Positions 38,130 to 58,628 are shown, counted from the stretch's first letter. The stretch is 64,000 bases of DNA from Spiractinospora alimapuensis (GCF_018437505.1 NZ_CP072467.1:2976001-3040000); one strand, 5' to 3'. A program made the numbers and translations. The notes: generated by a model from the letters alone, not told the origin.

Positions 38130-38292
38130 CCGAGTTCCCTCCGCCCGATCGTCGACGTCATGCGGGCTCCATCCTGTCGGGACGCGCCGTGGGGCGTGCG
38201 GGCGGGTGTGACGTGCGTCGTGGCCCCGGGTCGGCGCGCGTCGATAGGATCGGGCGGTCCGCAACGGCCAACCGTCAGGTGAGAGTGGGAGT

Positions 38293-39219: not shown

Positions 39220-39227
39220 CCTGCGGC

Positions 39228-40100: not shown

Positions 40101-40965
40101 GTCGGCCCCTCTCGTCGATCCGGGGTGCCGCGACCTGGCTGAGGACGCCCGCCAACGGCATGCTCAGGTCCAGTTGCCGGGCGACCGTCACGACGTCCCA
40201 GAGGTCCTTGCGCCATGGACGGTTGGCGGGAGCGGCACCGGAGGCCTCGTACTCGCTGGCGACGCGGTCGAAGAATCCCCAGTTGCGAAGACACCAGGAG
40301 TCGGCGGTACCGGCCTGGGCCACCTCCACCACGCGGTCCTCGGCGACGCCGAAGGCACGCGCGAGCGCGACCGCCTCCAGCGCGGCGGCCTGGTTGGCGA
40401 AGGTCATGAGCTGGTTGGCGAACTTGACCGCGAGCCCGCTGCCCAGGGGGCCGAGGTGGAAGACGTGCTCTCCCAACACGTCGAGCACCGGGCCGGCGTG
40501 GGACACGTCGGCGTCCTCACCGCCCACCATGATCGCGAGCGTTCCGGCCCGGGCCCCGTGGTCACCTCCGCTGACCGGAGCGTCCAGCACGGCCACTCCC
40601 CACGGCCCCAGCTCGCCGGCGAGGGCGGTGACCGTGCTCGGGAAGACCGTACTGTGCACCATGACCGTCGTGCCCGTTCGCAGGTGTCGTGCCACCCCTT
40701 CCGGTCCCGCGACGACGTCGCGGACCTGGTCGTCGTCGACCACGCATACGCAGACGACGTCACACTCGTGGAGGTCCGCCGGCCGGTCCACCAGCGTGAC
40801 GCCGGCGTCCTGGGCGACGGCCCGTCGTTCGTGGCTCACCTCCACGGCCAGCACCGGTACCTGGGTCTCCGCCAGCCGTAGGGCCATGGGGAGCCCGAGG
40901 TTGCCGAGGCCGATCACACCGACGCGGGGAACTGGTCCGGGGGAGACTTCGGTTGGTGTTGTCAC
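40093..40965 (-). CDS. 3-hydroxyisobutyrate dehydrogenase-family enzyme
   Basis: 290 aa, start at 40965. NAD-binding RVGVIGLGNLGLPMALRLAE, substrate loop VLDAPVSGGDHGARAGTLAIMVGG, catalytic Lys in GSGLAVKFANQLM, and a helical C-terminal domain. The family oxidises beta-hydroxy acids (3-hydroxyisobutyrate, tartronate semialdehyde, L-serine derivatives). Placement before a lactonase-like gene suggests sugar-acid or hydroxy-acid catabolism. Confidence 0.82.
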   Translation of the reverse strand: MTTPTEVSPGPVPRVGVIGLGNLGLPMALRLAETQVPVLAVEVSHERRAVAQDAGVTLVDRPADLHECDVVCVCVVDDDQVRDVVAGPEGVARHLRTGTTVMVHSTVFPSTVTALAGELGPWGVAVLDAPVSGGDHGARAGTLAIMVGGEDADVSHAGPVLDVLGEHVFHLGPLGSGLAVKFANQLMTFANQAAALEAVALARAFGVAEDRVVEVAQAGTADSWCLRNWGFFDRVASEYEASGAAPANRPWRKDLWDVVTVARQLDLSMPLAGVLSQVAAPRIDERGRRD

Positions 40966-41036
40966 TCTTCCTCCATGACGCCATCGCTGTTACGGGTGGG
41001 CGGGCTTGGGGTTCCACGGACCTCGGGGTCCGCCAG

Positions 41037-42533
41037 TCACTGGGGGCTCGGGGTCGCCTCCTCGGCGCGGTTCGCGCGGGCGCGCCACAGGGAGAACCCC
41101 AGCGAGGCGACGCTCAGCAGTAGCAACAGGAATGGGATCGGTTCCAGGATCCAGCCGTAGCCACCGCCCTCGAGGATGGTGGCGCGCCGGAAACCCGCCT
41201 CGGCGAGCGGCCCGACGATGAGGCCGATGACCATGGCGGCCGGTGGGAACCCGCCCTTGTGCATGGCGTAGCCGAGGACGCCGGCGAGGATCATCACCAG
41301 GATGTCGAACGGGTTGGAGCGCAGGGCGAAGGCCCCGATGACGCACAGCACCAGGACCCCCGGCCACAGGAACCGGGTCGGGATCCGCCTCGTCTGCGCC
41401 CACAGCCGGATCCCGAGGAGTCCGACCAGCAGCATCACGAAGGGAATGATGAGGAACCCGATGAACACCCCGTACACCACGTCGGGTGCGCCGGAGAAGA
41501 GCTGGGGTCCGGGCTGGAGACCGTGCACCGTGATGGCGCCGATGAGCACCGCCGCCGTGGCGTTGCCCGGGATCCCGAGCGTGAGGGTGGGGGCGAGGGT
41601 CCCCGGTACCGCCGCGTTGTTGGCCGACTCGGCCGCCGCGACACCGCGCGGGTCACCGTGGCCGAAGCTGTCCTTGTCCCGGGACAGGCGCCGGACCTCG
41701 TTGTAGCCGACGAACGCGCCGATGTCGCCGCCCGTCCCGGGGAGGATTCCGACGACGAACCCGAGCAGCGAGCTGTAGACCGACGCCGGCAGCAAGCGTC
41801 GCAGTCCACCGAGGATCGCGATCCGGAACGACCCGATCGGGGTGCTCCCCGACTGTCCCGAGCGCATGTTCTCGTAGTGCCGGAAGGCCTCGGCCACGCC
41901 GAACAGTCCGACGAGGACCGGGATGAAGTCCAGGCCCGCGCGCATCTCCCCTATCCCGAAGGTGAAGCGGGGATAGCCGTCGATCGGGTCCAATCCCACG
42001 GTCGCGATCAGCATTCCGAGCAGGCCGGCGATCAACGCCTTGCCCACCGCACGTTCCTGCAGGGAGGCGATGATGGTGAGGGCGAACACCGAGAACATGA
42101 AGTACTCCGCGGGCCCGAAGGACAGCGCGAACTCGGCGAAGAAGGGCGCGAAGGCCGCGAGCAGGACCGCTCCGACGAAGCCACCGACGCACGAGACGAC
42201 GACCGCGATGGTCAGCGCTTCACCCGCCCGGCCCTGCCGCGCCATGGCGTGGCCGTCGGCGACCGTCGCCGCCGCGGCGGGAGTGCCGGGGAGCCGGAGC
42301 AGGATCGCGGGGATGGATCCCGCGTAGACGGCGCCCGAGTAGATCCCCAACAGCAGCATCATGCCCGGCAGCGGGTCGAGCGCGAACGTGAAGGGAAGCA
42401 GGATCGCCACGGCCATGGTGGCGGTGAGTCCGGGCAGGGCGCCCACCGCGACCCCGGCGACGACACCCACGACGAGCAGGAGTAACGGCTGCCACGCGAG
42501 GACAGCTTCCAGGCCGATCATCCAGTTGTTCAC
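41037..42533 (-). CDS. tctA: Tripartite tricarboxylate transporter, large membrane subunit
   Basis: 498 aa from GTG at 42533. About eleven to twelve helices with TctA motifs: VGVVAGVAVGALPGLTATMA, PGMMLLLGIYSGAVYAGSIP, ILLRLPGTPAAAATVADGHA, LLGFVVGILPGTGGDIGAFV and TLTLGIPGNATAAVLIGA. It forms the sodium-coupled channel for tricarboxylate-like acids with TctB and TctC. Separated from tctB by an odd 307-base gap. Confidence 0.9.
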   Translation of the reverse strand: MNNWMIGLEAVLAWQPLLLLVVGVVAGVAVGALPGLTATMAVAILLPFTFALDPLPGMMLLLGIYSGAVYAGSIPAILLRLPGTPAAAATVADGHAMARQGRAGEALTIAVVVSCVGGFVGAVLLAAFAPFFAEFALSFGPAEYFMFSVFALTIIASLQERAVGKALIAGLLGMLIATVGLDPIDGYPRFTFGIGEMRAGLDFIPVLVGLFGVAEAFRHYENMRSGQSGSTPIGSFRIAILGGLRRLLPASVYSSLLGFVVGILPGTGGDIGAFVGYNEVRRLSRDKDSFGHGDPRGVAAAESANNAAVPGTLAPTLTLGIPGNATAAVLIGAITVHGLQPGPQLFSGAPDVVYGVFIGFLIIPFVMLLVGLLGIRLWAQTRRIPTRFLWPGVLVLCVIGAFALRSNPFDILVMILAGVLGYAMHKGGFPPAAMVIGLIVGPLAEAGFRRATILEGGGYGWILEPIPFLLLLLSVASLGFSLWRARANRAEEATPSPQ

Positions 42534-42840
42534 CGGTGTGTCTCCTGAGGGACGGTCCGGCGCGGGGGCCGGGGCGGATTCGGGGTCCGGTCGCCGGCCA
42601 CGGCTCCGACGCTCAGGGCGCGGTCCCCGGCGGGGCACCGGGGCGGGGCACTGTTCCGGCCGGGCGCGTCCACCCGAGATCCCGCTTGGGGGACGTGCGT
42701 CGGGGTGTGCGGGACGAGGAGGGGCTGCACGCGGTCTCCCTTTCGCGGTGGGCGACGGGTGGGGCACCCGCCGCGCGACGGTGCGCGTACGGGGCGCGGG
42801 ACGACGGGCGAGGCCCGGTGGGCGTCGGGTCAGGGGGAGG
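42534..42840 (-). other. 307-base non-coding gap inside the tct operon
   Basis: Very GC-rich, without a convincing frame on either strand. A stretch around 42751 (GTGGGCGACGGGTGGGG) matches the tail of the 46-bp intergenic repeat unit at 17650-17665, so a decayed copy of that element may sit here. It may hold a processing or internal promoter site for tctA. Confidence 0.45.
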
Positions 42841-43329
42841 TCACGTCAGCAGACGTTCGAGGGGACCCCGGGGAAGGGAGACGTCGAAGACCCCGTAGAA
42901 GGTGAAGTAGACGGCGGCGCTGAATGCCACCGAGACGCCGACCAGCGCGAGGACGTTGCGCACCCCGGCCAACCTGAGGGCGACGCCGAGGAAGACGGTG
43001 GTCGCGAGCAGGTACCCCAGCGGCGCGAGAACATTGACGTAGCCGACGATCGCCGCCACGACACCGACCACCCGCCAGGCGTCACTTCCGCGGGGGAACC
43101 GTTCCTCACCCACCGACCGGGGCAGCAGGGTCAGCGCGAGTGCCGCGAGGACAACGGCCAGGAGTCGGGGATAGCCCCCGGCCCCCGGATCGCTCTGCCG
43201 GCCCGGCGCGGGGAGGTCCAGGCTCGCCGCCCACACGGTGCCGGCCACCACGAGCAGGACGAGCACCGTCGCGATGGTCCCGGCTCGGCCCGGCGCCGTC
43301 CCCACGGGGGTGGGGGCCGCCACGGTCAC
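42841..43329 (-). CDS. tctB: Tripartite tricarboxylate transporter, small membrane subunit
   Basis: 162 aa from GTG at 43329, overlapping the tctC stop by 4 bases with GGGGAG upstream. Four helices: TIATVLVLLVVAGTVWAASL, LLAVVLAALALTLLP, VVGVVAAIVGYVNVLAPLGY and VLALVGVSVAFSAAVYFTFY; the motif SDPGAGGYPRLLA after helix 1 is usual for TctB. Accessory to TctA. Confidence 0.87.
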   Translation of the reverse strand: MTVAAPTPVGTAPGRAGTIATVLVLLVVAGTVWAASLDLPAPGRQSDPGAGGYPRLLAVVLAALALTLLPRSVGEERFPRGSDAWRVVGVVAAIVGYVNVLAPLGYLLATTVFLGVALRLAGVRNVLALVGVSVAFSAAVYFTFYGVFDVSLPRGPLERLLT

Positions 43330-44324
43330 GACTCCCCGTACAGGGTGTCGATCAGGTCGGCGTACTGCTCGAACTCTTCGTCCATGAACGCCTCGAACTG
43401 CTCGGCGTCGAGGTAGTCGCGCACGAAGCCCTGGGTGTCCATGAAGTCGACGAACTCCTCGGCCTCGAACGCCTCGGCGAAACACTCGTTGAGGGCGGCG
43501 ACGCGTTCGGCGTCCACATCGTTGGGGACGACGAGGCCGAACCAGTTGGCGGCCGTCCAGTCGACACCCTCCTCCACCAGTGTCGGTGTGTCCGGGAGCC
43601 GCTCCAGACGGTCCTCGGCCATGGTCGCCAGGGGACGCAGCTCCCCGGCGTCCATGTGGTCCACGCTCTCCGCACCGGAGGGGGCGATGGCCTCCACCTG
43701 GCCTCCCATGACGGCGGCGATCATGTCGGCGCCCCCGTCGAAGGGCACGCGCTCGGTGAACTCGGCGCCGGCCTCCACCTCGAGTCCGCCCGCCGCGATG
43801 TCCCAGATCCCACCGGTGCCGTTGGTGGCGATCCGGACCGTGTCGTCGCTCTCCATCGCGTCGACGAGGTCGCCGACGGACTGGAACTCCGAGTCGTTGG
43901 CGACGCTGAGCACGGCGGGATTGGCGCTGAACTTCATGACGCCTTGGAGATCGTCGGGAGTGACCTCCGCGCCTCCGAGGTGGTTGAGGATCGACACCTC
44001 GATCGTGGCCGCTCCGAGCGTGTACCCGTCGGGCTCGGCGTCGGCGACGGCCTGGTGGCCGATGGCGCTACCGCCGCCCTCCTGGTTGCTGACGATGATG
44101 TCGACGCCGCAGGGCTCCTCCGCCGCCGTGGCGAGTTGGCGCACCGTTTGGTCCGTCCCTCCGCCGGCGGCCCAGGGCACGATGACCTCGATCTGACGAC
44201 TGGGGAACTCCTCGTCGTCCGCGGCGTCGAGGCCACAGGACGTCAGGGCGAGGGTGAGGACGAGTCCGAGACTGAGTGGTGGCGTCAAGGGGATGAGAGC
44301 CGGTCGTTCTCCGCGAGGTGCCAT
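43326..44324 (-). CDS. tctC: Tripartite tricarboxylate transporter, binding lipoprotein
   Basis: 332 aa from ATG at 44324 with GAAGGAG 6 bases upstream. Lipobox VLTLALTSCGLD (Cys about 30). Bug/TctC fold: IEVIVPWAAGGGTDQTVRQL, ATIEVSILNHLGG, PFDGGADMIAAVMGGQVEAI, LVEEGVDWTAANWFGLVVPN. It catches an organic acid outside the cell and delivers it to TctAB. First gene of tctC-tctB-tctA, divergent from the GntR regulator. Confidence 0.9.
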   Translation of the reverse strand: MAPRGERPALIPLTPPLSLGLVLTLALTSCGLDAADDEEFPSRQIEVIVPWAAGGGTDQTVRQLATAAEEPCGVDIIVSNQEGGGSAIGHQAVADAEPDGYTLGAATIEVSILNHLGGAEVTPDDLQGVMKFSANPAVLSVANDSEFQSVGDLVDAMESDDTVRIATNGTGGIWDIAAGGLEVEAGAEFTERVPFDGGADMIAAVMGGQVEAIAPSGAESVDHMDAGELRPLATMAEDRLERLPDTPTLVEEGVDWTAANWFGLVVPNDVDAERVAALNECFAEAFEAEEFVDFMDTQGFVRDYLDAEQFEAFMDEEFEQYADLIDTLYGES

Positions 44325-44465
44325 CTGCCTCTCCTTCTGTGTCCACGGTTGGGGTCCCCCGTGTCGCACGCCGCGTGGTCGCTGGCGTGGTCAGACAGGC
44401 ATCGAGTGCGGATCCGCGTCTGCGCGACGATGACAGCCACATTGTGGGCCGCGTCTCGGACTTTT

Positions 44466-44620: not shown

Positions 44621-45394
44621 ATGTCCGTCTCCAGCGCCGAGACGACCGTTCCGCACAGTATGCGGTTGTCCTCGCCGCCGAGCATGACGCAGCTCGCTAC
44701 GGATGCCGTCCGCTCCATGATCCTCTCGGGGACGCTCTCGCCGGGGGACCGGGTGGTGGAGAGCCGTCTCACCGAGCTGCTGGGGGTGAGCCGGCCACCG
44801 CTGCGCGAGGCCCTGCGGGTGTTGGAACAAGAGGGCCTGATCGAGCAGCTACCCCGCCGGGGGGCACGCGTTCCGCCGATCACCCTGCAGGACATCTACG
44901 AGATCTACTCCCTGCGCGAGGGCCTGGAGGAGATGGCGCTCGGGTTGGCGCTGCCGGTACAGACCCCGGCGCGGCTCGAGCGGGTCCGCGCGGCGTTGAA
45001 CTCCATGCGGGAGGCGGCCTCCGTCGGCGACGAGGGCCGGTTCACCGAACGCGCCTTCGAGTTCCACACCGCGATCGTCGCGTTGGCGGGAAACCACCGG
45101 CTGGAGATGAGTTATCGATCGGTGGCCAACCAGATCCGCCTCTGCATGGCGATGAACCGCCGCGCCCGCCAGGCGCAGGAGTCACTCGAGGCCGACTGTG
45201 CCCGACACCAGGAGGTGTTGGACGCGTTGGAGGCCGGGGTGCCGGAGGACGCGTGCCAGGCACTGCGTACCCACGGTCACCGCACGTTCCTGCTGTCCGT
45301 CGAGCCGGACACCGCTGAGGCGAGCCCGCAGGCCATCGCGTGGCTGCGCGAGGTGCAGCGCGCGGAGGGCGGGATCGACGCCCCCGACGTCTGA
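44621..45394 (+). CDS. GntR/FadR-type regulator
   Basis: 257 aa from ATG at 44621 with AAAGGAG upstream. Winged HTH about 22-90: AVRSMILSGTLSPGDRVVES, LGVSRPPLREALRVLEQEGLI, PRRGARVPPI. C-terminal FCD-type helical domain: YEIYSLREGLEEMALGLAL, FTERAFEFHTAIVALAGNHRL with His/Asp positions for a metal-bound acid effector. Likely a repressor of the divergent tctCBA operon, relieved by a carboxylate. Confidence 0.88.
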   Translation: MSVSSAETTVPHSMRLSSPPSMTQLATDAVRSMILSGTLSPGDRVVESRLTELLGVSRPPLREALRVLEQEGLIEQLPRRGARVPPITLQDIYEIYSLREGLEEMALGLALPVQTPARLERVRAALNSMREAASVGDEGRFTERAFEFHTAIVALAGNHRLEMSYRSVANQIRLCMAMNRRARQAQESLEADCARHQEVLDALEAGVPEDACQALRTHGHRTFLLSVEPDTAEASPQAIAWLREVQRAEGGIDAPDV

Positions 45395-45474: not shown

Positions 45475-46899
45475 CTACCGCTCGGCGGGCTCCTTGGCCG
45501 ACCCGTCGTCGGCCCGGTCCCGGTACATCAGCCGGGACAGCACCGCGTAGACCACGGCACCGACCAGCACCGCCGGCAGCGACGCCGTCGTGTACTTGAA
45601 CAGGACGGTGTGCGGCTCGTAGGTCACCGGGTTCATGATCGCGATGTAGGTCGCGCTGCCCAGGAGGAGGGCGGCGATCCCCGCGATGTTGAACCCGCCG
45701 GTGTACCAGTACGCGGACCGGGGCGAGTGATCGAACAGCGAGGCAACCCGCAGTGTGTCGATCCGGCGCAGCAGGTACCAGTCGGCGAGCTGGATGCCCA
45801 CCATCGGCGCGATCATCAGACCGAGGAACGCCATGAACGCGTCCACGTTGTCGTAGAACGCGTTGCCGAAGAGCAGCACGGTGACGAACATCGGCAGCAG
45901 CACCAGCGCGGACAGGGGTTTCCAGCCGATCCTGGTGTTGACGTGCGGAAGCTGGGACAGACCCAGCGTCGCGATGAACGCCCCGACCAGGGGTGAGGTG
46001 ATGTTGGCGAACGCCACGAAGACGAGGACGGCGATGCCGCCCGCGGGTCCGGCGAGTTCGGGAGCCCAGATCGTGGGGTCGCCCTCTCCGGTGACCAGCG
46101 CCGCGTACAGGCTGACGATCCCGACGAGGACCCAGGCGACGCCGAGGCCGATCATCGACGGGAGGATCGCCTTCCGCGCCCTGCCGGTCATGCGCACGAT
46201 GCCGCCCATGTAGGACCACCAACCCCAGGTGCTGGCGATCAGCAGCTCAACCACGGAGGTGTAGTTGACCAGGCGATCGGCCCAGGGCTCCAGGGGTTCG
46301 GCGTTCGCGATCGCGGTCACGCCGTAGGTGGAGAGCAGCACGTAGAGCAGGTAGATCGTCAGCAGGGAGGTGAGGATCGCGACGACCGGCCCGATCTTCT
46401 TCAACGAGCGGGATCCACGACTCACCAACACCCAGACCAGCACGACACCGGCGCCGGCGATCAGGGTCGAGGTGGTCTCCCGCGCCCCGGGTGGGATGAC
46501 CCCGAGGATTTCCAGCACCGACCCGGCGGCCCGCCCGAAGAAGATCATCAGGACGGTGTTCCAGCCCAGGGCCGTCGCGTACTGGAAGAACAGTGCGATG
46601 TAGCTGCCCCGAACGCCGAGCTGCGGCTTGGTCGTGGTGACCGTTTCCAGGCCGTACTTGGTGCTCGCGGGGACAGTCGCCAGCGTGATGAGCAGTTGGC
46701 CGATGATGCCGCCCGCCAGCATCGCGGCGGCGCCCATCTTGGCGTCGAGGTAGTAGGCGGACGATGTGCCGACCACGAAGGACCAGGTCGCGATCCCCAC
46801 GGTGGTGCACACGGCGCCGAGGACGAATCCGTTCCAGTTCCGGTCACCGAGCGGGACCGGCAGACTCGAACTGCGCATTTTCAGGGCGGGTCGACTCAT
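45475..46899 (-). CDS. NCS1-family permease
   Basis: 474 aa from ATG at 46899, overlapping the stop of the 52-aa gene (ATGA). Twelve predicted helices; RNWNGFVLGAVCTTVGIATWSFVVG near the N-terminus and IGQLLITLATVPASTKYGLE, TWGWWSYMGGIVRMTGRAR and FANITSPLVGAFIATLGLSQLP fit the nucleobase-cation-symport-1 (cytosine permease) group. It should import a nitrogen heterocycle or similar polar molecule. It follows the acx genes after a 250-base stretch with hairpins and a small gene. Confidence 0.82.
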   Translation of the reverse strand: MSRPALKMRSSSLPVPLGDRNWNGFVLGAVCTTVGIATWSFVVGTSSAYYLDAKMGAAAMLAGGIIGQLLITLATVPASTKYGLETVTTTKPQLGVRGSYIALFFQYATALGWNTVLMIFFGRAAGSVLEILGVIPPGARETTSTLIAGAGVVLVWVLVSRGSRSLKKIGPVVAILTSLLTIYLLYVLLSTYGVTAIANAEPLEPWADRLVNYTSVVELLIASTWGWWSYMGGIVRMTGRARKAILPSMIGLGVAWVLVGIVSLYAALVTGEGDPTIWAPELAGPAGGIAVLVFVAFANITSPLVGAFIATLGLSQLPHVNTRIGWKPLSALVLLPMFVTVLLFGNAFYDNVDAFMAFLGLMIAPMVGIQLADWYLLRRIDTLRVASLFDHSPRSAYWYTGGFNIAGIAALLLGSATYIAIMNPVTYEPHTVLFKYTTASLPAVLVGAVVYAVLSRLMYRDRADDGSAKEPAER

Positions 46900-47054
46900 A
46901 GCCAACCCCAGATCAGCAGCATGGCCGGGACCAGTAGGCCCAGAACCGCGAGTACCGCGAGATCGGGACCGTTGAAGCCCTCTCCGACCGGCTGCCTCTC
47001 TAACTCGTCCGCGTAGATCTCCACAATCTCTTGGTCAGGATCTCGGTCTGACAC
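46896..47054 (-). CDS. 52-aa single-pass membrane protein coupled to the permease
   Basis: GTG at 47054 with GAGAGAGG upstream. Acidic N-terminus (SDRDPDQEIVEIYADELERQ) then one helix (DLAVLAVLGLLVPAMLLI, residues 31-48) ending WGWL at the stop. The stop overlaps the permease ATG (ATGA), so the two proteins are made together. N-in orientation is unclear. Comparable tiny subunits accompany some sodium symporters (for instance YhdT with PanF), which makes a structural partner of the NCS1 permease plausible. No homologue is recognised. Confidence 0.65.
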   Translation of the reverse strand: MSDRDPDQEIVEIYADELERQPVGEGFNGPDLAVLAVLGLLVPAMLLIWGWL

Positions 47055-47088
47055 GCAGACCTCTCTCTCGTTGATTGTTGAATACGGC

Positions 47089-47123
47089 TAGCCGGTCGAT
47101 CACCCTGGGTGATCGACCGGCTA
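47089..47123. terminator. Perfect 16-bp hairpin between acxC and permease genes
   Basis: TAGCCGGTCGATCACC (47089-47104) pairs without mismatch with 47108-47123 over a 3-base loop. It lies 34 bases upstream of the 52-aa gene. On the plus strand a T-rich run follows, although no plus-strand gene ends here. It may attenuate read-through from acx to the permease or stabilise the mRNA end. Confidence 0.65.
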
Positions 47124-47154
47124 TACCGTGATCTTCTTTTTGGCACCGGGGCTA

Positions 47155-47179
47155 CCGGGAGGGGGTGTTCCCCTCCCGG
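47155..47179 (-). terminator. 10-bp hairpin after acxC
   Basis: CCGGGAGGGG (47155-47164) and CCCCTCCCGG (47170-47179) form a perfect stem around GTGTT, 21 bases past the acxC stop. Probable terminator or processing site of the acx operon. Confidence 0.65.
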
Positions 47180-47200
47180 CGGTTCCTCGGCTTGACCGGC

Positions 47201-47698
47201 TCACGCTCGCTCGGGCAGCGGCTTTCCGAGCCAGTCGCGGTAGAAGGTCTCGAGGTCAGGCAGGAAGTCGAAGACGACGGGGAACCCCGGAGGGGCGGCC
47301 TCGACCTCGAGCAGGGTGGTGCATCCGGGGCAGATGAACTCCCGGATCTCCATCCAGTCGGTGTCGGGGGCCAGACGCCCCGGGTAGATCTCCTCGACGC
47401 TCTCCTTGTCGCCGCGGACCCGCACGTTGGCGCTGAGCTTCCAGTTCGTCCGGTAGTCACCGAACTCCTGGCCACAGTCGCACTTGACGATCCGCCCGGA
47501 GGGGCTCTCCACGATGTAGAGGTGCTCACCGATGGGCAGCAGGATCGGGTCGTCCCACTTCACGCGGTCCTGCAGGACGGCGATGTAGGTGTCGAAGCGG
47601 TCGTCGTCCTTGTGGGAGCTCATCATCGACTTGAGCGTCGGCCACTGGAGCTCGCCCTCGATGAGGTCCTTGATGATCTTCTTGTCACTGAAAGACAC
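47201..47698 (-). CDS. acxC: Acetone carboxylase gamma subunit
   Basis: 165 aa from GTG at 47698. KKIIKDLIEGELQWPTLKSMM and RFDTYIAVLQDRVKWDDPI match the acetone carboxylase gamma family (PF08882). Zinc ligands: VKCDCGQEFGDYRTNWKL and FICPGCTTLLEVE. C-terminal DFLPDLETFYRDWLGKPLP is conserved. It forms the small subunit of the heterohexameric enzyme that carboxylates ketones with ATP and bicarbonate. Last gene of acxABC, 33 bases after acxB. Confidence 0.9.
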   Translation of the reverse strand: MSFSDKKIIKDLIEGELQWPTLKSMMSSHKDDDRFDTYIAVLQDRVKWDDPILLPIGEHLYIVESPSGRIVKCDCGQEFGDYRTNWKLSANVRVRGDKESVEEIYPGRLAPDTDWMEIREFICPGCTTLLEVEAAPPGFPVVFDFLPDLETFYRDWLGKPLPERA

Positions 47699-47731
47699 GA
47701 TGTGTTTCCAATCCGCGTAGTGGAGGTCGGC

Positions 47732-49942
47732 TCAGCGCGCGTCCGCGGCGGGTTCGAAGCTGAAGTCGTCGTTCAGCCCCCAGAACTCGCGGAACTCCTG
47801 CGCGAACCGCTCCGACAGCGCCATGCTGTCGCGGTACATCTCCCGCACCTCCGGGACGAAGTCCCGCCGGGCCACCCGCTCGCGCTCGGTCTTCATCCAC
47901 TCGGAGACCGGGACGCCCTTGGTCTGGCGGTCGGCCACGATCTCGCGGCGACGCTCAGCGGTGGCCTCCGCGTTGACCTGCGGAATCTCGTCGTCTGACA
48001 CGATAACGCCATACACGGCGCGGGCCGCGAGCCGGGTCACGTATCCGTTGGCGATGTCGGTGGCCACGGACGCGGGGTCGCGCTCCAGCGGGTCACCGTA
48101 GCCGCCGCCGCCGTTGTAGGCGTGGGAGAACATGTCGCCCTCGCGCAGCGGGTCGTCGATGTAGGGACCCTCGACGACGTCGACGTTGCCGTTGGAGTAC
48201 TTCTCGACCTCGGTCTCGTAGGGGTCCTGGCCGAGGGCGTGCGGCAGCGGCTTGCGCGCGTCGGTGAGCTCCTTGAGGTTGCCACCGGTGGCGGCGTAGT
48301 GGAGCTGCACGGTCGGCGCCGGGTAGCCACCGCACATGCCGGCGTTGTCGAAGACGCGGCTGGAGTGCTCGGAGGTGGCGATCCGCAGTTGGTCGGTGCG
48401 GTTCACCAGCCACAGGGACTCGAAGCCGCAGCCACCGCGGTAGCGGCCGAAGCCACCGGAGTTGGCGCTGATGCTCCGGCCGAGGTAGACGGCCGGCATG
48501 TCCTGCTCCCAGACCTCCATGTTGCCCATGTCGGACTCGGGGTTCCAGCCGACGTAGGCGGTGTCCAGGCCGTCCTTGACTCCCAGGGCGCCACTACCGG
48601 CCGCGGCGCACTCGAACAGGGCGATACCGAAGTTGCCGCCGTACTGGCTGCGACCACCCATCTCGACCATGGGGCTGTTCACCTGGCCGACGAACACTTC
48701 CTCCATGAACCCACGGCCGAGGAAACCGCGGCTGAGGAGTCGCTGGAACAGCCCGTAGGCCGGCAGCAGCAGGGCCCAGGACGTCGCGGTGGCCACCGAC
48801 TCGTCCTGCGGGTTCGTCCAGGTGTCCGGCGGCAGGGTCAGGTCGGTCGCCAGCCAGGCGCCGTCGTTGACCTTGCCGTCGTAGTTCATGCTCTGGGTGA
48901 GGGTGACGAACAGACCACCGTCCATACCGGCCGGGGTGCAGTTCATGGAGTGGTAGCCCCACGAGTTGGTGCCCTCGAAGTCCAGCGACAGCTTGCCCTC
49001 CGCGGACACGTCCATGTCCATCGGGATGGCGTACAGCCAGTTCTTCTTGTCGGAGAGGGGAAGCAGACCCTTCTTGCCCTCGGTGACGTATCCGAAGAAC
49101 GTGTGGCCGCGGTAGCGTCCGGGCACCGTGAGCTGGCGCATCCGGGCGAGCTGCGCCTGGCGGCCCTCCTCGATGAACTCCTTCGTGGCCTGCTTGTAGT
49201 AGTCCACGCCGACGTTCTCGATGACCTCCTTGAGCTGCTCACGCACCTCGAGGCAGGCGGCGACCTTGGCCTTCTCGTCCAGCACCCAGTAGATGGGCAT
49301 GCGCAGGTTGCGCTCGAGCCGGATCAGGTAGTCGCGGCGCAGCTCGTCGTTCTGGCCGACCTTCTCCGCGCAGACGAACAGACCCTCGGTGTAGCGCTCC
49401 TGCGCCAGGGCGACGTCACCACCGGGGGTGATGCCACCGACCTCGAGCTCGTGCACGACGGCGGCGGCCCAGCCAATGAGCTCGCCCTCGTGGAACAGCG
49501 GGATCACGTCGATGACGTCGGGGGTCTGCACGGTGCCGATGAAGGCGTCGTTGTTGGCGAAGATGTCACCCGGGTTGATGCCGGGGTTCTCCTCGTACCC
49601 GTTCTCGATCATCCACTTGATGAACCGGCTGGCGGTGTGGACGTGCACCATGATGCCGTTGGACAGCGCGATCGCGTCGCCCTGCGGGGTGAACAGCGCG
49701 ACGACGCTCTCGCCGACCTCGCGCACGCCGGGGGAGGCGGAGATACGGCGGGCCATCTCACGCGCGGAGACGACCATGGAGCGCAGCTTGATGTGCAGGC
49801 TCTCGTACTTCATCGGGTCCTGGTCGCGCAGCGTGAGGTCACTCAGCCCCGCGTAGTGCCCGGTTTCCTCGAACTGCCGTTCGCTCTCCAGCAACGAGTC
49901 ACGAAGCGGCATCGACGCGTTCGATACCTGAGTTGCGGACAT
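47732..49942 (-). CDS. acxB: Acetone carboxylase alpha subunit (hydantoinase B family)
   Basis: 736 aa from ATG at 49942 with AGGAAGG upstream. Hydantoinase_B fold: DPMKYESLHIKLRSMVVSAREMA, GDIFANNDAFIGTVQTPDV, LIGWAAAVVHELEVGGI, GTNSWGYHSMNCTPAGMDGG, GQVNSPMVEMGGRSQYGGN. His and Asp ligands for the Mn site known in acetone carboxylase are plausible (VVHELEVGG, NNDAF). C-terminal NGGGGYGDPLERDP is a family hallmark. Length agrees with the family (about 770). It carries the carboxylation site; the beta subunit activates ketone and bicarbonate with ATP. Confidence 0.9.
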   Translation of the reverse strand: MSATQVSNASMPLRDSLLESERQFEETGHYAGLSDLTLRDQDPMKYESLHIKLRSMVVSAREMARRISASPGVREVGESVVALFTPQGDAIALSNGIMVHVHTASRFIKWMIENGYEENPGINPGDIFANNDAFIGTVQTPDVIDVIPLFHEGELIGWAAAVVHELEVGGITPGGDVALAQERYTEGLFVCAEKVGQNDELRRDYLIRLERNLRMPIYWVLDEKAKVAACLEVREQLKEVIENVGVDYYKQATKEFIEEGRQAQLARMRQLTVPGRYRGHTFFGYVTEGKKGLLPLSDKKNWLYAIPMDMDVSAEGKLSLDFEGTNSWGYHSMNCTPAGMDGGLFVTLTQSMNYDGKVNDGAWLATDLTLPPDTWTNPQDESVATATSWALLLPAYGLFQRLLSRGFLGRGFMEEVFVGQVNSPMVEMGGRSQYGGNFGIALFECAAAGSGALGVKDGLDTAYVGWNPESDMGNMEVWEQDMPAVYLGRSISANSGGFGRYRGGCGFESLWLVNRTDQLRIATSEHSSRVFDNAGMCGGYPAPTVQLHYAATGGNLKELTDARKPLPHALGQDPYETEVEKYSNGNVDVVEGPYIDDPLREGDMFSHAYNGGGGYGDPLERDPASVATDIANGYVTRLAARAVYGVIVSDDEIPQVNAEATAERRREIVADRQTKGVPVSEWMKTERERVARRDFVPEVREMYRDSMALSERFAQEFREFWGLNDDFSFEPAADAR

Positions 49943-49970
49943 TGTCCACCTTCCTGTGTCGGGAGAGCTG

Positions 49971-52109
49971 TCAGGCGTGCTCGTAGTGCAGAATCGTCCA
50001 CTCGTCGACCCACACCCGGTCCCCCGGCGGGATGACGAGGGTGGTGGCGGGGTGCTCGACCACGGCGGGGCCCTCGACGACGTTGCCCGGGCGCAGCAGG
50101 TCCATCTCCCACAGGGCGGCCTCGTGCCACTCCTTGAAGTAGTACATCTGCCGCGTGCCCTTGGAGGCCTCCGCGTCCGGCTGGGCGCTGCCCAGTTCCT
50201 GCTTCACCAACTGCGGCTTGATCTTGTCGACCTTGGAGATCAGACCAAGTTCGGTGATGGTGTGTCCGGCCTCCCGGTACTGCGCGACCGCGCGGTTGAT
50301 GGAGGCGTAGAGACGGTCGAACTCCTCGACCAGGGTGTCCAGGTCGGCGTCCGAGCTGAATTCCTGGATCGTCAGCGGCACCTCGACGTCCTCGAGCTGG
50401 CCCGTGTAGCGGGTCATCGCGAAGAGCTGGATCTCGACCTTGCCCGCCTCGTGGCCTTCCTCGACCATCTCGCGGACCGCGTTCTCCTTCAGCGCGCTCC
50501 ACACCCGGTTCGCCTGCTCGACGACGTCGGCCCGGTGGGCGGCGTCGGCGTTCGGCGGGATGGTGAGCTGCACCGAGCGGCTGTAGCGGCGCAGGTAGTC
50601 GGCGGTGGCGCAGCCGAAGGCCGAGAACGCCGCCGCGAAGGGGAAGGTGAGGATGTTCTTGAAGCCCATGCCGCGGCTGTACTCCGCCATGTGCAGCGGG
50701 CCGGAGCCACCGTAGGACATCAGGGTGTACTCGGCGGGGTCCACGGCGCGGGCGGAGATCATCTGCCGCATCGCGTCCTTGGCGCTCTCCTCGAGGATGT
50801 TCGCCATCCCCTCGGCCGCCTCGTAGAGGTCGATGCCCAGCGGGTCGGCGACCTTCTCCTTGATGACCTTCTTCGCGGCCTCGACGTCCAGGCGCACCTT
50901 GCCGCCGAGGAAGTTGTCGGGGTTGAGCCGGCCCATGACGACGTCGCAGTCACACACGGTGGGCTCGGTGCCGCCCTTGCCGAAGGCGACCGGGCCGGGG
51001 TCGGACCCGGCGCTCTCCGGGCCGAGGCTGACCTTCTTGGTCAGCGGGTCGACCTTGATGATGGTTCCGGCGCCGGCGCCGATGGTGTCCATCGCGATGG
51101 TGGGCAGGTTCAGCTTGAACCGGGCCAGGGTGGGCTCGTCGTCGATCGGGATCGTGCCGCGGGTGATGGCGCTGATGTCGAAGCTGGTGCCACCCATGTC
51201 ACTGACGATGATCGAGTCGGAGCCGATCACATCGCCGACGTACTTGGCGCCCAGGATGCCGCCGACCGGGCCGGAGATCATCGTCTCGTGCAGCCTCGGG
51301 TAGCGGACGCCGGCGAGACCGCCGTAGGACAGCACGGTCTGCACTCCGTAGCGGAAGCCCTGGGAGTGCGCGACCTCCTCGACCCCGAGGAGCTGCTGCC
51401 GGCTGCGGCCGGCGGCGTAGGCCTCGAGGATGACGCTGTTGAGGCGGGACTGCTCGCGGATGACGGAGCGGACCGCGGACGACAGGTAGACGTCGACGTC
51501 CGCCTTGTGGTCGGCGATGACCTGCTGGGCGATCTCCGCGATCTGACGCTCGTGGGCGTCGTCGACGTAGGAGAACATGGTGCAGATGCAGATCGCCTCG
51601 ACGCCCTTGGCGAGCATGTCCTCGACGCCGTTGACGACCTCGTGCTCGTACACCGGCGCGATCTCGGTGCCGAATTGGTCGATGCGCTCGGTGACGCCAC
51701 GGACGAGGTTCCGGGGAATCAGGGGCTCGGGGTGGGCGTGGGTCACGGCGTGCAGCCGGTCCTGGTAGGAGTAGTCCGCCCACGCCTGCAGGCCTCGACC
51801 CATCAGGACCATGTCTTCCATGCCCTTGGTCACGAGGAGGCCAACGCGCCGACCGGTGCGTGACAGGAGGGTGTTGAGCATGCCGGTCCCGGAGTACAGG
51901 ACGACGGCCAGGGCCTCGAAGGCCTCACGGGAGCTCATGCCGAAGTAGCCGGCCGCGTCCTCCGCGGACTCGAGGAAGCCCTCCGACTCGTTATGCGGAG
52001 TTGTCGGTGCTTTACCTACGGCGAATCGTCCGTACTCGTCGACGAGGAGGGTATCGGTCATCGTCCCTCCGGCGTCGATCCCGAGTACGAGAGGCCGAAA
52101 CTCGTTCAA
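49971..52109 (-). CDS. acxA: Acetone carboxylase beta subunit (hydantoinase A family)
   Basis: 712 aa from TTG at 52109, selected because AAGGA lies 6 bases upstream and the product begins NEFRPLVLGIDAGGTMTDTLL; the ATG at 52154 adds a non-conserved leader. ASKHA nucleotide-binding fold: DAGGTMTDT, SDMGGTSFDISAI, GAGAGTIIKVDPLT, SAGSDPGPVAFGKGGTEPTV, YGGSGPLHMAEYSRGMG. Length fits AcxA (about 715). It phosphorylates the ketone enolate and bicarbonate. First gene of acxABC. Substrate could be acetone, a higher ketone or, given the NCS1 partner, a heterocycle; sequence alone cannot decide. Confidence 0.9.
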   Translation of the reverse strand: MNEFRPLVLGIDAGGTMTDTLLVDEYGRFAVGKAPTTPHNESEGFLESAEDAAGYFGMSSREAFEALAVVLYSGTGMLNTLLSRTGRRVGLLVTKGMEDMVLMGRGLQAWADYSYQDRLHAVTHAHPEPLIPRNLVRGVTERIDQFGTEIAPVYEHEVVNGVEDMLAKGVEAICICTMFSYVDDAHERQIAEIAQQVIADHKADVDVYLSSAVRSVIREQSRLNSVILEAYAAGRSRQQLLGVEEVAHSQGFRYGVQTVLSYGGLAGVRYPRLHETMISGPVGGILGAKYVGDVIGSDSIIVSDMGGTSFDISAITRGTIPIDDEPTLARFKLNLPTIAMDTIGAGAGTIIKVDPLTKKVSLGPESAGSDPGPVAFGKGGTEPTVCDCDVVMGRLNPDNFLGGKVRLDVEAAKKVIKEKVADPLGIDLYEAAEGMANILEESAKDAMRQMISARAVDPAEYTLMSYGGSGPLHMAEYSRGMGFKNILTFPFAAAFSAFGCATADYLRRYSRSVQLTIPPNADAAHRADVVEQANRVWSALKENAVREMVEEGHEAGKVEIQLFAMTRYTGQLEDVEVPLTIQEFSSDADLDTLVEEFDRLYASINRAVAQYREAGHTITELGLISKVDKIKPQLVKQELGSAQPDAEASKGTRQMYYFKEWHEAALWEMDLLRPGNVVEGPAVVEHPATTLVIPPGDRVWVDEWTILHYEHA

Positions 52110-52173
52110 CGGGGATCCTTCCGCCTGCTGACATTGACTAACGAGATTAACCATAACCGCAGGTTGGGGCGAT

Positions 52174-52203: not shown

Positions 52204-52386
52204 TCCTCAACGAAAACGGCGCGTTGTTCTGTCGCATCAATTGCCGCAAAAACAAGTGACCTTAATCACAAAAATTACGTATTGTCACTGGTCAATCAAG
52301 GTGCAGATTTAGACACAAATTAGGGGCGAAAATCCGCAAACGGTATGGTCGGCCAATCTTTGTCCGATCCGCGCAGGAGGCCCCCC

Positions 52387-53166
52387 ATGTCCGCCCTTGC
52401 CCCCTTCGTCCGCGCACTCGCGTCGGGCGACATCGACGTGATCGACCTCACAGCACCACTGACCTCCGAGACGCCCGTCCTCCAGCTCCCCGAACCCTTC
52501 GCGAACACCGTTCCGTTCACGTTGCGGGAGGTCAGCCGCTACGACGACCGGGGACCCGCCTGGTACTGGAACGACATCCACACCGGCGAGCACACCGGGA
52601 CCCACTTCGACGCCCCGGTGCACTGGGTGACCGGCGCCGAGGGTCGCGACATCGCCCAGGTTCCGGCCACCGAACTCCTCGCCCCGGGAGTCGTGCTGGA
52701 CTTCTCCGCGCAGAGCGCGGCCGACCCCGACTTCCTGCTGAGCGTCGACGACGTCCGCGGGTGGGAGGCCACCCACGGCCCCCTCCCCAGCGGCGGTTGG
52801 CTGCTGCTGCGCACCGGGTGGGACGCATACGCCCACGACGCGGAGCGCTACCTCAACACCGACGAGACGGGCTCGCACACGCCGGGCATCTCTGGGGACT
52901 GCGCGCGGTGGCTCGCCGAGGAGACCGACATCCTCGGAATCGGGGTGGAGACCGTCGGGACCGACGCGGGAATGGCGGCGGGCTTCACTCCCCCGTTCCC
53001 CTGCCACGCCCTCCTTCTCGGTGCGGGCAAGTACGGCCTGACCCAGCTCCAGCGGTTGGAGCGACTGCCCGCCACCGGGACGTTGATCATCACCGCCCCA
53101 CTGCCGATCGTGGGAGGGTCGGGCAGCCCAGCGCGCGTCCTTGCCCTGGTGGACCGCACCGCGTAG
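52387..53166 (+). CDS. Cyclase family protein (PF04199)
   Basis: 259 aa from ATG at 52387 with AGGAGG 6 bases upstream. Metal-binding signature HTGTHFDAPVHW (about residues 73-84). DLTAPLTSETPVLQLPEPF, GWLLLRTGWDAYA and GIGVETVGTDAG fit kynurenine formamidase/isatin hydrolase-type enzymes, which hydrolyse amide or lactam bonds. Divergent from acxA across the AT-rich region, so possibly co-regulated. A ring-opening hydrolase next to a heterocycle permease is suggestive. Confidence 0.83.
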   Translation: MSALAPFVRALASGDIDVIDLTAPLTSETPVLQLPEPFANTVPFTLREVSRYDDRGPAWYWNDIHTGEHTGTHFDAPVHWVTGAEGRDIAQVPATELLAPGVVLDFSAQSAADPDFLLSVDDVRGWEATHGPLPSGGWLLLRTGWDAYAHDAERYLNTDETGSHTPGISGDCARWLAEETDILGIGVETVGTDAGMAAGFTPPFPCHALLLGAGKYGLTQLQRLERLPATGTLIITAPLPIVGGSGSPARVLALVDRTA

Positions 53167-53214: not shown

Positions 53215-53970
53215 TCAGATCCCTCCCGTGAGGGTCTTCCCCCCGTCCACGGGAACGGTCTGGCCGGTCAGCCACGCGGCGTCCTCGGAGAGCAGGAACG
53301 CCACGACGCCACTGACGTCGCTGGGCACACCGAGTCGACCCAGCGGGTAGCCCGCGGCCACCTCGGGCTCCTTCCCCTCGTACAGGGCGGTGGCGAAGCG
53401 GGTCTTGACGACCGCCGGGGCGACGGCGTTGACGCGCACGGCGGGGGCGAGCTCGACGGCCAGCTCCGCCGTGAGGTGGGAGAGCATCGCCTTGCTCGCG
53501 CCGTAGATCCCGATGCCGGGTGCCGGGGCGAGTCCCGCGACCGAGGACAGGTTGACCACCGCGCCGCCGTGGTCCCGCATTCCGGCGCGGTACACCTGCT
53601 GGGTCCAGGCCAGGGCCGCGAGACAGTTCACCTCGATCACCTTGCGCGCCGCGTCCAGGTCCACGTCGATGATCGGGCCGTACACCGGGTTGATGCCCGC
53701 GTTGTTCACGAGCAGGTCGATCGGGCCGAACGCCGCCCGGGTTCGCTCGACGGTCTCGCTCTGGTGGTCGGCGTCGTCGCTCCTGCCCGGCACGCCCATG
53801 GCGTGGTCGGGGCCACCCAGCTGGGCCACGGCCTCGTTCAGGGGGTCGGGTTTGCGCGCGGTGACACACACCCGCGCGCCCTCGGCCACGAGCCGCTCCG
53901 CGACGGCGAGTCCGATCCCACGACTCGCCCCTGTGACGATCGCGGTCCTTCCGGCGAATCTTCCGGTCAT
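53215..53970 (-). CDS. SDR family oxidoreductase
   Basis: 251 aa from ATG at 53970 with GAAGGG upstream. Classical SDR: AIVTGASRGIGLAVAERLV, LLVNNAGINPVYGP, catalytic Ser (NLSSVAGLA), YGASKAMLSH (Tyr/Lys), and PLGRLGVPSDVSGVVAFLLSED with the C-terminal TGQTVPVDGGKTL. Similar to FabG-type 3-oxoacyl reductases. It precedes the frameshifted TetR gene's 3' end (68 bases) on the same strand. Confidence 0.85.
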   Translation of the reverse strand: MTGRFAGRTAIVTGASRGIGLAVAERLVAEGARVCVTARKPDPLNEAVAQLGGPDHAMGVPGRSDDADHQSETVERTRAAFGPIDLLVNNAGINPVYGPIIDVDLDAARKVIEVNCLAALAWTQQVYRAGMRDHGGAVVNLSSVAGLAPAPGIGIYGASKAMLSHLTAELAVELAPAVRVNAVAPAVVKTRFATALYEGKEPEVAAGYPLGRLGVPSDVSGVVAFLLSEDAAWLTGQTVPVDGGKTLTGGI

Positions 53971-54745: not shown

Positions 54746-56935
54746 CTAGTCGACGGAACCCTTCTCGGCCGTGCCCGCCGCCTGCGTTGACGAGGATGAC
54801 TCCGCGTCCTCGACCTGGTCGACCTCGTCGAACCGTTCGGGAAGCCCGGCACGGTGACGATGGTGGGCCACCACGTGGGCGACGATCACGGCGCCCACGA
54901 CGAGAGCGCTCAGCCCGTTGAGCAGGACCGCGTTGCCGGTGGGGATGGAGGCCGTCGCCTGGGTGATCGCCGCGGCCAAGCCACCGGGGAGGAGATTCAC
55001 GAAGTAGTCCGCGAGCCAGCTCGAGAGGATGAGGGCCATGGTCGCCGCGCCCAGTCCGACCCGTTCCAGCAGGGTGGTGGCTCGGAGGAAGTAACCCTCC
55101 AGACACACCGCGAAGGCGAACAGGGCGAGACATCCAGTGATCACCGCCGAAATGATCTCGGCGAGCGATCCGTTCAGCAGCAGCGGCGTGTAGGCCATCA
55201 ACAGGGGAATCAGGTAGAGGCCCTTGGCGTACTTCCAGGCCGACACCGAGGTGCGCATCGCCCCCGACCCCGCGATGGCCGCGGCGGAGAACGCCGCCAA
55301 CGCCACGGGTGGTGTCACGTTGGAGTCCTGGGAGTACCAGTAGACGATCATGTGCGCGACCACGAGGGAGAGCCCCAGCTCGCCGAGCGCGGGGACGGCG
55401 AGGACGCTGAGCACGATGTAGGACGCCGTGACCGGCATACCGAGCCCCATGATCAGGGATGCCAGCGCGATGAGCAGCAGGGTGAGGAAGAGGTACCCGC
55501 CGCCAGCGCCCACGATGTAGCTGGAGAGCCGCAGCCCCAGGCCGGTGAGCCCGACGATTCCGACGATGATGCCGGCGGCGGCGCAGGCCACCGAGACCAG
55601 CAGCGTGTTGCGGGCGGCGATGACGAACACTTCCAGGATGTCCCAGAAGCCCAGGCGGCTCGCGGCACGCACCATGGCGACCAGGAGCAGCACGCCGATC
55701 GCGACCATGCCGGCCCGCAGCGGGGTCCAGTAGAGGAGCAGCAACGCGGTCAGGACGACCAGTGGGATGAGGAAGTGGAACCCGCTGGCCATGACGTCGC
55801 GTACACGGGGGAGGCTCTCCTTGGGCATCCCCGTGAGGCCGTTCTTGCGGGCGATGATGTCCACGAAGAGGTAGACGACGAGGAAGTACATCAACGCCGG
55901 GATGATGGCGATCTTCACGACGTCGGTGTAGGGGACGCCCAGGAACTCCGCCATGACGAACGCCCCGGCGCCCATGATGGGTGGGAGGAGCTGTCCACCG
56001 GTGGACGAGGCCGCCTCGACGCCGCCGGCCTGGTGTCCCTTGAAGCCGACGCGCCGCATCATCGGGATCGTGAAACTGCCGGTGATGGCGACGTTCGCGA
56101 TCGCGCTGCCCGACACCGAACCGACGAGCCCGCTACCCACGACGGCGCCCTTGGCCGGACCGCCGGGGGAACGTCCGGTCAGCGCCATCGCGAGACCGAC
56201 CAGGAAATTGCCGCCACCGGACTTCTGGAGCAACGCCCCGAACAGCAGGAAGACGAAGATGAAGGTCGCGGCGACACCCAGCGGCACCCCGTAGATGCCC
56301 TCCTGGAACAGGTAGCTGTGGTAGGTGATCCGCTGGTAGGTGTAGCCACGGTGGGCGAGGTCCCCGGGCAGCAGCGGTCCGATCCAGGCGTAGAACAGGA
56401 ACCCGGCCACCAGGACGGACATGAACAGGCCGATGACGCGGCGGCAGGCCTCCAGGACCACCAGGATGGCGACGACGCCCATGGCGAGGTCCAGCCCGGT
56501 CGGCTGGCCCATGCGCTGCACGATCTCGCCGAAGTTCAGCAATGGGTAGAGGCTGACGACGGCGGCGGTCCCGGCGAGCAGGAAGTCCACGACGCCCATC
56601 GGTGTGCTCTTGGCCCACGCGCCCTTGCCGGCCGGCTTCACCAGGAACACCAGCACCAGCACGAAGAGCAGGTGGGTGACGCGGTGCAGGTAGGCGTCCA
56701 GGCTCACGAAGAGCGCGCTGTAAATCTGGTACAGGCCGAGCAGCACCGCGATCACGAGCACCACGATGCCGAGCACTGAGGCCAGACGGCCCTCGCCCCA
56801 GCGTTCCGTGGCGAGCCGCTCCCACAGGGGCCGACCGTCACCCTCACTGTCCACGTCGGGCTGTGTCGGGCCGGACGGCGGCACGGGGGGAGCCGCCGAC
56901 TGGGCGGGTGGCCGCCGCGCGGTGTCTTCAGTCAT
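54746..56935 (-). CDS. TRAP transporter fused permease (TAXI type, DctQM)
   Basis: 729 aa from ATG at 56935, overlapping the DUF1850 stop by 4 bases. About 16-17 helices. N-terminal four-helix DctQ-like part (LGIVVLVIAVLLGLYQIYSA to about 190) then DctM-like part with VGSGLVGSVSGSAIANVAITGSF, GGVEAASSTGGQLLPPIMGAGAF and GLGMPVTASYIVLSVLAVPAL. TAXI-type systems import glutamate or other dicarboxylates using sodium gradients. Works with the TAXI lipoprotein encoded upstream. Confidence 0.9.
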   Translation of the reverse strand: MTEDTARRPPAQSAAPPVPPSGPTQPDVDSEGDGRPLWERLATERWGEGRLASVLGIVVLVIAVLLGLYQIYSALFVSLDAYLHRVTHLLFVLVLVFLVKPAGKGAWAKSTPMGVVDFLLAGTAAVVSLYPLLNFGEIVQRMGQPTGLDLAMGVVAILVVLEACRRVIGLFMSVLVAGFLFYAWIGPLLPGDLAHRGYTYQRITYHSYLFQEGIYGVPLGVAATFIFVFLLFGALLQKSGGGNFLVGLAMALTGRSPGGPAKGAVVGSGLVGSVSGSAIANVAITGSFTIPMMRRVGFKGHQAGGVEAASSTGGQLLPPIMGAGAFVMAEFLGVPYTDVVKIAIIPALMYFLVVYLFVDIIARKNGLTGMPKESLPRVRDVMASGFHFLIPLVVLTALLLLYWTPLRAGMVAIGVLLLVAMVRAASRLGFWDILEVFVIAARNTLLVSVACAAAGIIVGIVGLTGLGLRLSSYIVGAGGGYLFLTLLLIALASLIMGLGMPVTASYIVLSVLAVPALGELGLSLVVAHMIVYWYSQDSNVTPPVALAAFSAAAIAGSGAMRTSVSAWKYAKGLYLIPLLMAYTPLLLNGSLAEIISAVITGCLALFAFAVCLEGYFLRATTLLERVGLGAATMALILSSWLADYFVNLLPGGLAAAITQATASIPTGNAVLLNGLSALVVGAVIVAHVVAHHRHRAGLPERFDEVDQVEDAESSSSTQAAGTAEKGSVD

Positions 56936-57462
56936 GGCTTTGCCTCATTCGTTGCCTCCGTGTCGCAGCCGGCGGGCTCGGGGCCCGCCGTGATCCATCG
57001 CAGGGTGGAGACCCGAGCCGCGCTCAACGTGACGCGTTCGCTCTCCCAGCACCGGGAGAGCGCGACCTCTCCCTCGGAGTACAGAAGACGGTGGTCCACC
57101 CCGGCGTCTCCGGCGCGGACGTGCAGCTCGCCCACTGGTTCGTCGATGTCCTCGACCACCCAGTCGGCGCCGTCGGCGCTGCCGCTCCCCCGGCCCGGGA
57201 TGTGGCCCATCCCGGCGCCGAACGACTGGATCCGGGTGGACTCCAGCACGACCTCCCCGTCGGCGATCCGGTACTGGTCCTGGACGGGAAGTCCGTCGAT
57301 GGAGTGGGTGAACGACACGGTGAACACGGCATCGTCACCCAGCCGGAGGAACCCGGCGTCGCCCGACTCGGCGTGGACCGAGAGGGCGGGCCACACCGGC
57401 AGGAGAAGAGCGGCCGTCGCCCCCAGGACGGCCGCCGTCCCCCACAGTCGGGCCGGGGTCAC
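56932..57462 (-). CDS. DUF1850 protein of the TRAP operon
   Basis: 176 aa from GTG at 57462, overlapping the TAXI lipoprotein stop (GTGA) and ending across the permease ATG. One N-terminal helix (LWGTAAVLGATAALLLPVWP) then VFTVSFTHSIDGLPVQDQYRI, the DUF1850 core, FGAGMGHIPGRGSG, and a Cys pair near the end (SRCWESER, AGCDTEA). DUF1850 genes regularly lie between TAXI binding proteins and permeases; the molecular role is unknown. Confidence 0.85.
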   Translation of the reverse strand: MTPARLWGTAAVLGATAALLLPVWPALSVHAESGDAGFLRLGDDAVFTVSFTHSIDGLPVQDQYRIADGEVVLESTRIQSFGAGMGHIPGRGSGSADGADWVVEDIDEPVGELHVRAGDAGVDHRLLYSEGEVALSRCWESERVTLSAARVSTLRWITAGPEPAGCDTEATNEAKP

Positions 57463-58478: not shown

Positions 58479-58628
58479 CGTCCACCTCTTCCACGATTGC
58501 GTCCTATGTCACGTGCCAGCGACCTTGTACTAACATCGCGAACAGCGGTAGGGATCCGTGGTTGATTTGAGGAAGACCTGAGGTGGACCGACCACCCGGC
58601 CCGGCTGCCGCGTAGGAGGTCAACCCCC

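Follow-up and report, generated by a model that had tools for sequence, protein, structure and literature searches.

Acetone-carboxylase-type genes with an altered metal site adjoin an NCS1-fold permease in Spiractinospora alimapuensis: a possible entry of a choline-like ketone into carnitine catabolism

Which substrate does an acetone-carboxylase-type enzyme act on if its genes are followed by a permease gene on the same strand? We addressed this question for a locus within a 64,000-nucleotide stretch of DNA from Spiractinospora alimapuensis (GCF_018437505.1 NZ_CP072467.1:2976001-3040000), referred to as the window. On its minus strand, running from 52154 to 45475, acxA, acxB, acxC, a 52-aa open reading frame (ORF), and a permease gene follow each other in this order (Table 1). 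The original prediction had described acxABC as complete and canonically ordered, and the strand as running on into a permease and a 52-aa membrane protein; both descriptions held, the three genes being intact and located on one strand. For acxA, homologues favor the inner start near 52109 used in that prediction, which is probably the correct one. Among solved structures, each of the three products is closest to its counterpart in acetone carboxylase (5svb/5m45). The three-gene make-up, including a PF08882 gamma subunit, is that of acetone carboxylase, and the zinc-binding cysteines of the gamma subunit (C-x-C and C-x2-C; positions from PMC5543143) are retained in the alignment.

Table 1. Features of the acx–permease locus and its surroundings (window coordinates).
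Feature	Coordinates	Strand	Evidence
acxA-like, HyuA/oxoprolinase-type subunit (beta of acetone carboxylase)	49971..52154	-	PF05378/PF01968/PF19278; best PDB match 5m45_B, E 3e-178
acxB-like, metal-site subunit (alpha of acetone carboxylase)	47732..49942	-	PF02538; 5m45_A, E 1e-164
acxC-like gamma subunit, four Zn-binding cysteines	47201..47698	-	PF08882, E 7e-42; 5svb_C, E 3e-52
GC-rich hairpin after acxC, 10-bp arms	47155..47179	-	Folding/inverted-repeat analysis
17-bp perfect palindrome before the small gene	47089..47123	-	Inverted-repeat analysis
52-aa one-helix membrane protein, proposed small permease subunit	46896..47054	-	Upstream of 79/79 permease homologues
NCS1-fold permease of the small-subunit clade	45475..46899	-	PF02133, 51 bits (cut-off 23.5); AlphaFold model; start overlaps small-gene stop
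GntR/FCD regulator, convergent with permease	44621..45394	+	Domain match
PF04199 cyclase-family hydrolase	52345..53166	+	Domain match; divergent from acxA
SDR dehydrogenase	53215..53970	-	Domain match; ~30% identical to SDRs of L041 and rhizobial loci

The metal-site ligands of acetone carboxylase are His150, Asp153, His175, and Glu89 (PMC5543143). Their equivalents in AcxB of the window are Gln139, Asp142, His164, and Glu78, i.e., three ligands are retained and His150 is replaced by glutamine. Carboxylase queries covering the genomes of the window's phylum and a plasmid collection placed AcxB in a clade with 100/100 support in the tree, whose enzymes are 39–45% identical to the acetone-type enzymes of the phylum. 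Glutamine occupies the His150 position in all seven clade members checked. Among the remaining homologues, the site was readable in 20 (13 relatives from the phylum and seven further ones), and all of these, like acetone carboxylase, have histidine there. A more distant acxAB-like pair, located beside glutamine-synthetase-like and isochorismatase-like genes (L235 7460-11757, genome G029), represents a third context for the carboxylase superfamily.

Against the NCS1 subfamily model TIGR00800, the permease reached 35 of 353 bits, which is far under the cut-off; its AlphaFold model (pLDDT 91.7) matches CodB and Mhp1 with TM-scores of 0.74–0.77 and thus has the NCS1 fold. A scan with the permease alignment, using one genome per species, yielded 79 homologue loci. 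Neighborhoods were examined for the four closest permeases (57–66% identity) and for the orthologue in genome G038 (53%). In three of these five loci, L040 (an actinomycete MAG), L041 (Arthrobacter castelli), and L125 (G038), permease orthologues with 53–65% identity to that of the window adjoin acxABC genes whose products are 70–81% identical (77–81% for acxA). The original prediction had named a lack of such co-occurrence in other genomes as a refuting outcome; the check gave the opposite result. The carboxylase genes are divergent from the small-gene-plus-permease unit in the three loci and co-directional with it in the window; the pairing therefore survived rearrangement. Adjacency in four genomes and two arrangements supports that permease and carboxylase belong together. 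Both Streptomyces loci (L038 11608-16605, L039 11741-16742) have the small gene, the permease, and an Lrp-type regulator and lack acx. In its place are genes for an alcohol dehydrogenase and for a Rieske oxygenase with ferredoxin and reductase, the oxygenase being nearest in the PDB to carnitine monooxygenase; this perhaps represents another route for the same substrate. In the wider permease family, neighboring genes encode choline dehydrogenase, agmatinase, aldehyde dehydrogenases of the betaine-aldehyde type, and omega-aminotransferases, which fits transport of amines rather than nucleobases.

The 52-aa ORF and the permease gene share an ATGA, in which the stop codon of the former overlaps the start codon of the latter. 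A small ORF with a strongly hydrophobic segment lies directly upstream of every permease homologue found, and these homologues span 29–66% identity and actinobacteria, bacilli, alpha- and gammaproteobacteria, and acidobacteria. The ORFs comprise 37–109 aa, the longest values depending on the choice of start. As a control, 28 NCS1 genes were sampled across the class; the single positive belonged to the permease clade of the window (36% identity) and was left out, and none of the other 27 NCS1 genes has such an ORF upstream. The 52-aa ORF is therefore not a chance ORF. In the G038 draft, the frame of the small gene seems to be shifted by one base, which may stem from faulty assembly. Among 16 members scanned, no Pfam or NCBIfam family was found for the small protein, one or two members matching unrelated models weakly (best E 0.0046), and a search of the open-access literature returned no relevant description of a small accessory subunit of NCS1 transporters. 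Its position and conservation suggest that the small protein is a subunit of the permease.

Regarding the genes flanking the operon, the PF04199 hydrolase had been described as facing it. The gene is instead back to back with acxA and convergent with the SDR gene. PF04199 homologues were detected near distant permeases (L056, L058, and L063) and at none of the other carboxylase loci examined; a partnership with the cyclase is thus not supported, and the hydrolase probably lies outside the carboxylase/permease system. The GntR/FCD gene possibly encodes a regulator of the locus, but it was dismissed as a common regulator, since related permease loci carry an Lrp/AsnC regulator instead. The orthologue of this Lrp regulator in the genome of the window is located ~114 kb from the permease, beside an SDR gene (L234 9589-11011; G000:C1 about 2909200-2910600) that may belong to the same regulon. 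Further transport genes of the window, next to a TetR gene and the SDR gene, encode a fused TRAP permease, which has DUF1850, and a pair of TAXI-type binding proteins on opposite strands (54746-59741). Elsewhere in the window lies a separate uptake/catabolic cluster of TctABC transporter genes, two amidohydrolases, and a hydroxyisobutyrate-dehydrogenase-like gene (37266-44369).

The carboxylase genes are also associated with genes of carnitine catabolism. In L040 and L125, acxC is followed by a gene for a beta-keto-acid cleavage enzyme (BKACE), a family assignment confirmed as PF05853 on the orthologue of the window's own genome; L040 additionally contains a thioesterase whose match is to the C-terminal portion of carnitine 3-dehydrogenase. 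In A. castelli and Streptomyces, BKACE genes that neighbor those for carnitine dehydrogenase and thioesterase encode products with 73–75% identity to the acx-linked BKACE of G038. In a class-wide sample of carnitine-dehydrogenase loci that excluded the window's own, 26 of 29 had an adjacent BKACE, 20 of which are 70–77% and six 57–58% identical to the acx-linked one; these counts describe samples, and genomes within one clade are not independent. In the tree, the acx-linked BKACE pair nests within the carnitine-dehydrogenase-linked BKACEs, as expected for orthologues. G038 encodes the acx-linked BKACE as the only family member found, with dehydrogenase and thioesterase on another contig without BKACE. 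Carnitine dehydrogenase (E at most 1e-60) was detected in 42 of 390 genomes of the class, and a match is present in all four genomes with carboxylase and permease: three pass this threshold, and the MAG G427 (2e-56) has a frame-split gene beside BKACE. In this MAG, the carnitine BKACE–dehydrogenase pair is broken by apparent frameshifts (L153 about 9062-10850), and the acx-linked BKACE is intact. No carnitine dehydrogenase was found at the carboxylase locus itself. The genome of the window encodes the whole proposed gene set at three loci. BKACE and thioesterase (3348842-3350154) lie about 0.3 Mb from the carboxylase genes, and a BCCT transporter and the dehydrogenase (near 1514940) about 1.5 Mb from them; both of these loci include a BetI-type regulator.

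The same AcxB clade (about 65–68% identity) is encoded on 56 plasmids of Sinorhizobium and Shinella. One of them is pSymB of S. meliloti 1021 (422175-424328 and neighboring genes); after this clade, the best AcxB homologues of the plasmid collection are near 40%. The annotated rhizobial operon comprises, in this order, a regulator, acxA, acxB, acxC, an SDR, and a "choline ABC transporter substrate-binding protein". The latter and ChoX (2reg; E 7e-122) can be aligned over their full length, and all four residues of the aromatic cage of ChoX, i.e., Trp43, Trp90, Tyr119, and Trp205 (PMC5643546), are conserved. One carboxylase clade is thus tied to two unrelated types of transporter for choline-like or amine compounds, the NCS1-fold permease in actinobacteria and the ChoX-like protein in rhizobia. 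No paper on the S. meliloti acx locus was found under guessed locus tags. Sequence comparison hence gives an operon of a distinct clade with an altered metal ligand, whose association with genes for a permease, BKACE, an SDR, and a choline-type binding protein is conserved.

From this association we infer the substrate and the direction of the reaction. In our assessment, acxABC fairly probably encodes an ATP-dependent carboxylase of acetone-carboxylase build for a trimethylammonium methyl ketone that feeds carnitine breakdown. The permease and its 52-aa one-helix subunit would import the ketone or its alcohol, beta-methylcholine, which an SDR would oxidize to the ketone; for the SDR at 53215..53970, such an alcohol-to-ketone step is possible. 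The substrate would most simply be trimethylaminoacetone, since a ketone carboxylase (R-CO-CH3 to R-CO-CH2-COO-) feeding the BKACE step would make 3-dehydrocarnitine. BKACE would then convert 3-dehydrocarnitine and acetyl-CoA to acetoacetate and betainyl-CoA, and the thioesterase would release glycine betaine. Several observations count against this route: the hairpins between acxC and the permease, the location of BKACE, thioesterase, and dehydrogenase outside the window, the lack of a nearby BKACE at L041 and the rhizobial loci, and the SDRs of different carboxylase loci, which are not clear orthologues. Beta-methylcholine is, moreover, to our knowledge not a well-known soil substrate. Equally compatible would be a salvage role, in which trimethylaminoacetone from the decay of 3-dehydrocarnitine is recarboxylated. 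BKACE-type enzymes take part in the conversion of 3-dehydrocarnitine to betainyl-CoA in the pathway of P. aeruginosa, and trimethylaminoacetone has been reported in bacterial carnitine metabolism (PMC12482172). Our literature search returned no relevant paper joining carnitine with such a carboxylase.

An alternative raised by the original prediction is that the operon stops at acxC and that the permease is an unrelated neighbor behind a terminator (47089-47179). The two hairpins are strong, the stretch between acxC and the small gene having a fold z of -8.5 versus shuffles, and the Streptomyces orthologues beside the Rieske cluster demonstrate that the permease also occurs without acx. A T-run was looked for in this stretch and not found. 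The 17-bp palindrome, present as a single copy in the whole genome and thus excluded as a genome-wide repeat, may be terminator-like or an operator. Although the hairpins separate the genes here, four genomes, with two gene arrangements between them, place the permease beside this carboxylase clade, which contradicts an unrelated neighbor, and we regard this explanation as very improbable.

Two further readings differ in the substrate. An ordinary acetone carboxylase could recapture acetone from decarboxylated acetoacetate, a product of BKACE during carnitine breakdown, and subunit make-up and fold are indeed those of acetone carboxylase. The clade-wide loss of the metal-ligand histidine, the separate clade, and its distance from the acetone-type enzymes of the phylum argue against it, as do the associated choline-type binding protein and amine-type permease, neither of which would be useful for acetone; this makes acetone an improbable substrate. 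Another cationic or polar methyl ketone, e.g., a different N-methylated aminoketone or a sulfonium analogue, combined with a BKACE of broad specificity, seems somewhat less far-fetched but still unlikely. The varied genes beside relatives of the permease suggest that substrates differ among amines, yet the close identity of the G038 acx-linked BKACE to carnitine-linked ones and the intact ChoX cage in rhizobia speak against it. The original prediction had proposed a polar ketone or a heterocycle imported by the permease. A polar ketone, not acetone, is probably the substrate, whereas a heterocycle such as hydantoin was rejected, as the likeness to hydantoinases is only at superfamily level and both the gamma subunit and the solved relatives indicate a ketone carboxylase.

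Carboxylation of a trimethylammonium ketone thus remains our preferred reading. We give about even chances to the joint proposal that a carboxylase with an altered metal site makes 3-dehydrocarnitine from a quaternary-ammonium ketone, an undescribed route that would lead into carnitine catabolism through fixation of carbon on a choline-like compound, and that the permease represents a branch of NCS1-fold amine transporters with two subunits, widespread and so far undescribed. If so, a different substrate would be assigned to enzymes of actinobacteria and of Sinorhizobium plasmids (pSymB among them) whose present annotation is acetone carboxylase or hydantoinase, the fate of the trimethylaminoacetone reported earlier (PMC12482172) would be explained, and the carboxylase family would include a natural catalytic metal site with Gln replacing His. 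The small permease protein forms a conserved gene family for which no database model was found, and it would provide NCS1-fold transporters with an accessory subunit.

Among known systems, AcxABC of X. autotrophicus (5svb/5m45) resembles the enzyme of the window in its three subunits, their order, the Zn-Cys4 gamma subunit, and the equivalents of Glu89, His111, Asp153, and His175; the enzyme of the window differs in having Gln in place of His150, in forming a separate clade, and in its link to genes of the carnitine and choline types. Acetophenone carboxylase (Apc, 5l9w) belongs to the same superfamily and likewise carboxylates a ketone at the expense of ATP, its product being a beta-keto acid that is cleaved later, but it has another subunit set and far lower similarity. 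Carnitine catabolism by carnitine dehydrogenase, BKACE, and betainyl-CoA thioesterase employs BKACE and thioesterase of the same orthologous type as the proposed route, which would however be entered by ketone carboxylation and not by carnitine oxidation. CodB and Mhp1 have the fold of the permease at only 15–19% identity, whereas the permease clade of the window always occurs with a gene for a small one-helix partner, and its neighbors point to amines, not nucleobases. A small accessory subunit of another secondary transporter is MetS of the C. glutamicum MetPS carrier. Like the small protein of the window, MetS is very short and has one helix, and its gene adjoins that of a LeuT-fold carrier; MetPS, however, belongs to another transporter family, and no sequence family common to the two small proteins was found.
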